From Pseudobdellovibrionaceae bacterium (GTDB taxonomy: Bacteria; Bdellovibrionota; Bdellovibrionia; Bdellovibrionales; Bdellovibrionaceae): a stretch of DNA of 48,931 bases. The notes beneath the pieces were generated by a model. That model saw only the letters and a list, made by a program, of their open reading frames with translations, was not told where the DNA came from and made no database searches. Shown here in pieces: positions 27,958 through 30,096 of the stretch (within the stretch, counting starts at the first letter, position 1; each line of letters starts with the position of its first letter). A program made the position numbers and the translations under genes. The stretch is from positions 1 through 48,931 of the forward strand of contig JABWCN010000034.1 of the NCBI GenBank assembly GCA_013359135.1, read 5' to 3'.

Positions 27958-28731
27958 ATGATAGCTTTTTATACGCTCTTAAGAAAAGAAGTGAAACGTT
28001 TTCTAAAGGTGATGATGCAAACCATAGTCACTCCTTTTATGAGTAGTTTTTTATACTTGTTAGTTTTTGGTGTGAGTCTTGGAAGTAAAGTGGATAACTT
28101 ACATCAGGTTCCTTATCTTGCTTTTTTGATTCCAGGATTGATGATGATGAGTTTAATGAATAATGCTTTTCAAAACTCTTCTTCTTCCATTGCTGTTTCA
28201 AAATTTTCAGGAGATTTGGAAGATCTTCGTGTGGCGCCGTTAACTCCTCACCATCTTTTACTATCTATGGGTTTGGGAGCTGTAGTGCGAGGTGCCGTCG
28301 TTGCAATTATTACTTATATTGTTGGGATTATTTTTTATTATTTGCAATTCCAAGAGATTTTAACAGTTAAACATCCGTTAATTTTGATTTATTTTATTTT
28401 AGCAGGGGGATTTCTTTTTGGGTTACTAGGTGTTTGTGCTGGTTTTTGGGCAAGAAGCATTGAGCATATAGCGGCTTTTTCTAATTTTATTTTATTGCCT
28501 TTATTGTACTTGGGGGGAGTTTTTGTTTCTATTGAGTCCTTACCAGAATGGGCGCAAAAATTTTCTCAGCTAAACCCTGTGTTGTATTTGATTAATGGTC
28601 TAAGGTTTGGAGTTTTGAGTGTCTCTGATGTATCCCTAGAAAACTCTTTATTGGTTTCCTTGTTGGGGATTTTGATTATGTATCTATTAGGTCTATTAGC
28701 AATAAAAAAAGCAAGCTTCAACCGCTGGTGA
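27958..28731 (+). CDS. ABC-2 type transporter permease
   Basis: A 257-residue permease with six hydrophobic segments and the ABC-2 hallmark LYLGGVFVSIESLPEWAQ...LNPVLYLINGLRFG near the C terminus. The start follows GAGGAAGG in the 79-base gap after the ATPase. Together they form one exporter. Confidence 0.93.
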   Translation: MIAFYTLLRKEVKRFLKVMMQTIVTPFMSSFLYLLVFGVSLGSKVDNLHQVPYLAFLIPGLMMMSLMNNAFQNSSSSIAVSKFSGDLEDLRVAPLTPHHLLLSMGLGAVVRGAVVAIITYIVGIIFYYLQFQEILTVKHPLILIYFILAGGFLFGLLGVCAGFWARSIEHIAAFSNFILLPLLYLGGVFVSIESLPEWAQKFSQLNPVLYLINGLRFGVLSVSDVSLENSLLVSLLGILIMYLLGLLAIKKASFNRW

Positions 28732-28812: not shown

Positions 28813-28898
28813 AAATAAAAAAACCTCGTTTGGGGGAAACGAGGTTTTAGGGGGGGGAAGACAGTAGTCTTTGGGGGAAAAAACTTAATCCTGCCTTT
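28813..28898 (-). ncRNA. Candidate C-rich small RNA
   Basis: Read on the minus strand, this region has a C5 run (28873-28877), a hairpin AAGAC/GTCTT (28858-28871), a C8 run (28850-28857), then an intrinsic terminator with C5 as its loop (28832-28836) and a U-rich tail. A possible promoter lies upstream on the same strand: TTTGTT (28927-28932), 16 bases, TAGTAT (28905-28910), putting the start near 28898 and the length near 85 nt. C-rich unpaired loops resemble those of small RNAs that pair with G-rich ribosome-binding sites. No known RNA family is recognised. Confidence 0.5.
28821..28847 (-). terminator. Strong Rho-independent terminator oriented to the minus strand
   Basis: AAACCTCGTTT (28821-28831) and AAACGAGGTTT (28837-28847) form a perfect 11-base stem with a five-base loop (all G on plus, all C on minus). 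The U-tract is long on the minus strand (TTTTTTTATTT) but only TTTT then AG on the plus strand, so it mainly ends minus-strand transcription, though the plus-strand ABC operon could also stop here. Confidence 0.8.
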
Positions 28899-28936
28899 GT
28901 CTTAATACTATTGCAATGGAGGTACCAACAAATACC

Positions 28937-28962: not shown

Positions 28963-29235
28963 CAATGGGATTTACTAATAAGAAGCTCTAAAAATGGCAA
29001 GAGTTAGAGATTGAGGTGACATTTCAAAATGAGATGTTAAGTAATCAGAAATTATCTAGTATCAAAAGTTTTGACTAATAGTAGTGAAATTCAACAAATC
29101 TAATAGAAGGATTTTATTGGCGGAAAATTTTTGTTTGGGTCAGTGTTTTACTTGAAAAAACATTTTTTGCCTCTGATTGAGGCGGTGAGTTTAATAGATT
29201 TGGAAATTGTCACAGAAGCACTTAAAATCAGGGGA

Positions 29236-30096
29236 ATGAAAACACTAACTTCTGAAGTGCATATAAATAATAAAGGTTTTTCTCTTCTTGAAACATTAAT
29301 TTCTATTGGAATTTCTTCGATTATAGCACTTAGCGCCACCTATGCTTTGGTGACTTCGATGGAGGGAATGTCACATATGAAGAATATGAATTTAGCAGAG
29401 GATGCAGTGCAATTGGTTTCTGGGATGTTAACTGATCCTAACTATTGTGGACTTCACTTTAATGGTAAGTCAGTACCTAACTCTATGGGAAGAGTGATTG
29501 AACCTGATGTCGTTTTTAAGGATATGGCAACAGCTACCAGTTTAGGAACAACTGATATTTTTAAAGCAGGTCAAAAATACCAAAACAGTTTATCAATAAC
29601 TTCTGTTAAGTTATACGTAGATTCTAAAATAGGTACGAACAGATATGTAGGTTCCGTGCGAGTGGAATTCAAAGGTTCAGCTGGCATGGTAAGTCAGTTT
29701 ACAAGATCTGCGACCTTATTTTTAAAGACGGATGCGACCTCAAAAATCATAGATTGTAGCCAGATTCAAACATCGAGCGTAACAGCCTCGCAGTATATAA
29801 AGGGACAAATGTATGGTCATTGTAAGCAGGATTTAGATGCAAATTTTATGGCAACAAATGCATCACCCGCAGCTTGGCCTATGCTGACTTGCCCATCTTC
29901 AGGTGCTCCAACCCCAACTTGTGACACAGGTTTTTCTTTATCGGTAAATTCGGTCGCTCAGATGAATACTAGGGGATCTGGTTTCGTAAATGCGATCCCA
30001 TTAATGGCAGATCAACGATTAGATCTCAGGAGGGTTATCGGAGAAGTTGTGGATGGTGATGTCTATATTGCTACTTATGGGTGTGTCAAAAATTAG
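29236..30096 (+). CDS. Type IV pilin-like protein (third pseudopilin)
   Basis: Taken from the ATG at 29236, the product has 286 residues: a 13-residue leader, then the prepilin site KGFSLLETLISIGISS with Glu at +5, then a hydrophobic helix. A TTG at 29131 would give a 48-residue leader, unusually long for a prepilin. The body has NYCGLHFNGKS and IIDCSQ, the Cys framing also seen in the two pseudopilins near 11-13 kb, but no Fn3 module; instead a C-terminal Cys-containing domain (YGHCKQDL, LTCPSS, TCDTG, YGCVKN). A GGGG tract touches the ATG, too close to serve as a normal ribosome-binding site. Confidence 0.75.
   Translation: MKTLTSEVHINNKGFSLLETLISIGISSIIALSATYALVTSMEGMSHMKNMNLAEDAVQLVSGMLTDPNYCGLHFNGKSVPNSMGRVIEPDVVFKDMATATSLGTTDIFKAGQKYQNSLSITSVKLYVDSKIGTNRYVGSVRVEFKGSAGMVSQFTRSATLFLKTDATSKIIDCSQIQTSSVTASQYIKGQMYGHCKQDLDANFMATNASPAAWPMLTCPSSGAPTPTCDTGFSLSVNSVAQMNTRGSGFVNAIPLMADQRLDLRRVIGEVVDGDVYIATYGCVKN

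Follow-up and report, generated by a model that had tools for sequence, protein, structure and literature searches.

Small RNAs (sRNAs) with C-runs in their loops have been described in Xanthomonas, mycobacteria, Helicobacter and staphylococci. Sigma-54 promoters also drive some stand-alone sRNA genes, such as those for GlmY and for Qrr of Vibrio, the latter being multicopy as well. The sX13 RNA of Xanthomonas is intergenic, carries C4/C5 loop motifs and represses, independently of Hfq, mRNAs that carry G-rich motifs close to their start codons (PMC3771888). The mycobacterial 6C/B11 RNA, from genomes without Hfq, has C-run loops and uses the C-rich loop of its terminator as the seed (PMC12395582), and the sRNA RepG of Helicobacter pylori acts on a G-repeat within the leader of an mRNA (PMC8295292). 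In Bdellovibrio bacteriovorus, the attack-phase sRNAs and merRNA are intergenic, with sizes of 98-655 nt (PMC3627812). In the present study, we analyzed a 48,931-nucleotide stretch of DNA from a Pseudobdellovibrionaceae bacterium (the window) and describe a locus of this general kind. With a probability of about 0.68, we read it as the gene of an Hfq-independent, trans-acting and sigma-54-dependent sRNA that would repress mRNAs with G-runs in their ribosome-binding sites.

Position and Fold of the RNA

The type A sRNA gene was assigned to positions 28813-28901 of the minus strand (about 89 nt) on the basis of its conservation in 6/6 genomes of the genus, its fold and covariation; its end was placed at the U-tract, and its start was inferred from sigma-54 spacing. 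All of its parts lie on the minus strand. Hairpin 1 (28858-28897) was identified by its fold and by compensatory changes in its outer helix, and it is followed by a single-stranded C8 linker (28850-28857), defined by the alignment and the unpaired probability. The terminator hairpin (28820-28848) was found by scan, alignment and covariation, and its U-tract (28813-28823) by the sequence and the terminator scan. The C-runs of 5, 8 and 5 nucleotides, which are G on the plus strand, occupy the loop of hairpin 1 (28873-28877), the linker and the terminator loop (28832-28836), respectively. They form the sole cluster in the window of three same-base runs of at least five within 90 nt, and three such clusters in total arose in 300 simulations of the window by a first-order Markov model.

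The terminator stem reads AAAACCTCGTTT-CCCCC-AAACGAGGTTTT on the minus strand (28848-28820), with 12 perfect pairs and then TTTATTT. It was the sole terminator-like site between 27800 and 29800, where shuffled sequences averaged 1.2. The folded window RNA reached -22.5 kcal/mol (z of -3.6 to -4.05), and 0/200 shuffles were equally stable. The mean unpaired probabilities of the three C-runs were 0.98, 0.90 and 1.00, and the fold thus confirmed a minus-strand terminator with three C-runs in loops and linker, as the preliminary description had proposed. Its perfect stem with a minus-strand U-tract was also recovered, but with 12 pairs in place of 11; likewise, the RNA is small, but its length is about 89 nt from sigma-54 spacing and not about 85 nt. 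A peptide-coding RNA was ruled out by reading the sequence, which holds no ATG, GTG or TTG start codon.

Both flanking genes are on the plus strand, namely an ABC-2 permease gene (27958-28731) and a prepilin-like gene with an N_methyl motif (about 29236-30096), which is divergent to the sRNA. No credible minus-strand gene was found upstream of the sRNA, in agreement with the preliminary description. We also observed that AGGGGA precedes the ATG of this prepilin-like gene (29236-30096) and that another prepilin-like gene of the same genome (L255) has a G7 run before its start.

Promoter and Sigma Factor

A promoter with a 16-base spacer had been suggested for the RNA. That proposal was not supported: a sigma-70 scan returned no site near the sRNA start, so a sigma-70 promoter was rejected, and the conserved element is of the sigma-54 type. 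This element, YTGG-N8-TTGCA or GG-N10-GC, was present in 9/9 type A copies just upstream of the conserved start region, which is AGACAG in most of them, and the nine copies matched the sigma-54 consensus at 10-11 of 13 positions. In the window, it reads TTGGTACCTCCATTGCA (28912-28928, minus strand), with GG at 28926-28925 and GC at 28914-28913, and is the sole GG-N10-GC site reaching 11 in 48.9 kb. Because the C at -12 falls on 28913, the start was placed near 28901 (G), which gives an RNA of about 89 nt.

RpoN was found in 35/35 genomes tested, with one gene in the window's own genome (C90:113953-114432), and no Hfq-family protein was found in the 35 genomes of the order tested. Transcription of the type A RNA would appear to be driven by a sigma-54 promoter. 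A partly conserved block of the alignment (29010-29042, given without strand), some 110-140 nt upstream of the start, may be an activator site, and we list it as a weak candidate for the enhancer region.

Homologs and Covariation of the Type A RNA

We searched 59 related genomes with a DNA query of 246 bases around the locus. Strong matches (E of 1e-9 to 1e-13) were obtained in 5/5 other genomes of the genus, and no comparable match was found in this search outside the genus. The five genomes contain eight homologs, with three copies in G002, two in G004 and one in each of the others. The flanking genes of the homologs are mostly different and most of the loci unrelated, although three copies resemble one another upstream (G002 C47, G005 and G004 C33) and a cupin-like gene follows two of these (G002 C47 and G005). 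Synteny with the permease failed as a route to homologs, because the sequence that follows the permease gene is not conserved.

These neighborhoods bear on whether the hairpin is only the terminator of an adjoining unit, such as the plus-strand permease operon, with no separate RNA. The hairpin, with its almost symmetric stem, does lie about 90 nt past the stop codon of the permease gene. We nevertheless consider a terminator of the permease operon very improbable because the homologs lie elsewhere, next to other genes; moreover, the plus strand offers just TTTTA after the stem, and the conservation spans hairpin 1 and the promoter.

The nine type A copies were aligned over 100 columns, and all three C-runs were kept in 9/9 of them, with C5-6 in hairpin 1, C4-9 in the linker and a C-run in the terminator loop (loops of C5-6). 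The terminator stem is spelled in several ways among the copies, and its pairing is always retained. Both-sided changes were observed in 5/11 modelled pairs of the terminator and in 3/7 pairs of the outer helix of hairpin 1. In the whole alignment, 97.7% of the cells were paired, compared with 32-60% when the partner was slid, and 20 double changes were counted against a mean of 5.7 in shuffles; related sequences account for part of this support, and the figure from the control is not to be read as a probability. The preliminary description had called for the C-runs and stems to be conserved, and we found that the former are kept in every copy and that the latter change by compensation.

The same data speak to a feature conserved at the DNA level, such as a G-quadruplex of the plus-strand G5, G8 and G5, which do lie on one strand. 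The G-runs are 13-15 nt apart, the stems covary as RNA and the promoter is kept at a fixed distance, and such a feature is therefore extremely improbable. Comparison of the copies supports the gene, its strand and ends, its promoter class, its fold and the conserved C-runs, and from the sequences the type A locus is very probably a real RNA gene. The homologs, the kept C-runs and the covariation lend strong support to the conserved minus-strand regulatory RNA proposed at the outset.

The covariance search in related genomes that had been recommended was performed with a model of the type A RNA (R1). It recovered the six genus genomes at E <= 5e-19 and a genome of another genus (G017) at 3.6e-9. 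Both this match and a second, weaker match (G024) have a C-run hairpin, a C-run linker, a C-run terminator and a sigma-54-type site, and R1 thereby adds full-layout matches in two further genera; among the inspected R1 matches outside the genus, only these two combined the full layout with a sigma-54 site. Most weak R1 matches beyond the genus were discarded as ordinary terminators or as C5-loop terminators after protein genes in Bdellovibrio. As a separate observation, terminators with C5-C6 loops lie at 407371-407417 (-), 611031-611069 (+) and 1204842-1204893 (-) of G059:C1, with relatives at L104-L113. A C-run precedes these terminators, which directly follow protein-coding genes in Bdellovibrio genomes, and they are possible C-run RNAs from 3' ends.

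Type B RNA across the Order

We then considered two C-runs downstream of GG-N10-GC as a search pattern, with the reversed pattern as a control. The pattern was found in 56/66 genomes of the family (19/20 genera), and the reversed control occurred only sporadically. Most matches represented one short RNA of about 57 nt, here termed type B, of the form 5'-..ACCCCCCATGGCGGCCAGG-(C-run loop)-CCTGGTCGC-TTTTTTTTT. Its stem shows compensatory changes, and its promoter is a near-consensus sigma-54 site (TGGCAC-N5-TTGC). A model of type B matched 111/140 genomes of the order, generally with a single hit in each, and the sigma-54 site was present in 18/20 of the distant copies inspected and absent in 2/20. 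In the window's own genome, type B lies at about G000:C25:8636-8694 (L164:6637-6695, plus strand). In G059, presumably B. bacteriovorus HD100, it lies at C1:2620002-2620058 on the minus strand, with a predicted start near 2620058.

The 12 genomes compared share one conserved type B neighborhood. By sequence, we take the neighbor on one side to be uppP and those on the opposite side to be rph, rdgB, prs, rplY, pth and ychF. About 100 nt upstream of the sigma-54 site, Bdellovibrio-type genomes (L142, L143, L165, L167 and relatives) carry the palindrome CGACAATTGTCG, or a sequence closely related to it, and after it a TGTC..GACA-like repeat; related sequences occur in the window's genus. On sequence grounds, the palindrome is a candidate enhancer or activator binding site. 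Types A and B may be paralogs. We do not claim descent of one from the other because, in the window's genus, the type B model R2 matched just a single place per genome at E <= 0.001. Type B was absent from the attack-phase sRNA screen of B. bacteriovorus, which covered attack-phase-specific RNAs only (PMC3627812).

Candidate G-Run Targets

In the six genomes of the genus, GGGGGG followed by ATG at 3-11 nt occurred 340 times compared with 167 for the reversed pattern, an approximately twofold excess with overlapping matches counted. These G6 sites were sampled as target candidates (gene loci L246-L259, L298 and L303). In G002, G004 and G005, GGGGGG before the ATG was kept in the orthologs of a MotA/ExbB-type channel gene, of a secreted exo/endonuclease-phosphatase-type protein and of a large exported protein whose family was not recognised. 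Before subtilases and a trypsin-like protease, it was seen in pairs or single genomes only. In the L256/L257 pair, CCGGGGGGAATATG is unchanged and the upstream DNA has diverged. Across the family, the MotA/ExbB-type channel gene often has G4-G7 at this position, but the run is broken in G001, a member of the window's genus. Signal peptides were predicted for 22/36 G6 genes, with orthologs counted more than once, and for 44/136 background ORFs; this comparison used a crude predictor and was made post hoc, and we do not take it as proof.

The preliminary description had named GGAGG-type sites as possible partners. Duplex energies with the window RNA pointed elsewhere: an AGGAGG control leader reached -12.9 kcal/mol, whereas GGGGGG leaders reached -16.9 to -22.8 kcal/mol. 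According to these calculations, G-run ribosome-binding sites are the better target candidates. The GGGGGG sites in front of secreted hydrolase genes are no more than a lead, and G-runs can be plain Shine-Dalgarno sites.

The G6 excess also helps to weigh the possibility that type A or type B mainly pairs with RNAs other than leaders (G-run antisense RNAs or 3' regions), or that C-run RNAs compete for common sites. Several C-run transcripts or C5-loop terminators do seem to coexist in the group. However, the C-run RNAs do not pair mutually, no matching G-run small RNA was seen, and the excess of G6 sites is near start codons, which makes this possibility quite unlikely.

Proposed Mode of Action

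By analogy with sX13, B11 and RepG, G-runs ahead of start codons are the expected binding sites of the window RNA. As for transcription, the activator, pairing in trans, repression and the targets, we infer the following course of events. An enhancer-binding protein would activate RpoN-RNA polymerase at 28928-28912, and the RNA would begin near 28901, form two hairpins and end at its own terminator. The two hairpins would present C5 loops, with the C-run linker joining them. The exposed C-runs would then base-pair, independently of Hfq, with G-run ribosome-binding sites on several mRNAs, whose translation would be hindered. Type A would thus be a longer companion of the order-wide type B.

A protein sponge, in which the C-runs titrate a C-run-binding protein in the manner of CsrB/CrcZ with no mRNA pairing, would also fit the repetition of one single-stranded motif, the presence of several gene copies in some genomes and the absence of Hfq. 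The motifs are just three and short, however, C-run RNAs elsewhere work by base-pairing, and we know of no C-run-binding protein in the group. We consider a sponge unlikely and retain repression by pairing with G-run ribosome-binding sites as the preferred reading.

A broader proposal is that the Bdellovibrionales, without Hfq, have a dedicated sigma-54-controlled C-run sRNA system, comprising the order-wide type B and the lineage-specific type A, which would recognise GGGGGG ribosome-binding sites and gate the translation of surface machinery and of enzymes exported for predation. We put this forward tentatively, as a possibility that is on balance doubtful. Post-transcriptional control in predatory bacteria has been little explored, and the genomes tested lack Hfq. 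The results suggest that C-run loop sRNAs constitute here a deeply conserved, sigma-54-coupled system, and type B, with an exact predicted place in the presumed HD100 genome, offers a candidate regulator that can be tested directly in a model organism.

Comparison with Known Systems

No Rfam 15 family matched in the window, the best sub-threshold scores being far below the cut-off. For the 6C family (RF01066), the window RNA was not listed at E <= 5, and the 6C model scored 20.6 bits on type B of G059 against a cut-off of 47. In the literature searched on Bdellovibrio sRNA, Hfq and sigma-54, we found no report of type A or type B. The window RNA belongs, by the sequence tests available, to no known C-run sRNA family. 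The attack-phase sRNAs come from the same predator family, but their coordinates and sizes are unlike those of type B or of the R1 matches in the presumed HD100 genome.

The traits of several known systems are nevertheless present. With sX13, the window RNA shares unpaired C-runs in loops; sX13 differs in having 115 nt and three stem-loops, whereas in the window RNA one of the C-runs lies in a linker, the promoter is of the sigma-54 type and no family match was found. In the style of 6C, there are two hairpins with C-rich loops (C5-6 in the nine type A copies), and common to the window RNA and to 6C/B11 of mycobacteria and other Actinobacteria are C-run loops, including a terminator loop, and the absence of Hfq. 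RepG has one studied target with a variable G-repeat and no family match with the window RNA, and we know of no evidence that it is under sigma-54 control. Like sigma-54-dependent sRNA genes, the locus has GG-N10-GC at -24/-12 in a genome that encodes RpoN; Qrr and GlmY, however, are linked to Hfq or RapZ and are not C-run RNAs, and no sequence relation to the window RNA was found. What would be new is the link to sigma-54 and how deeply the RNAs are conserved; the mode of action, on our reading, would be like that of the known C-run sRNAs.
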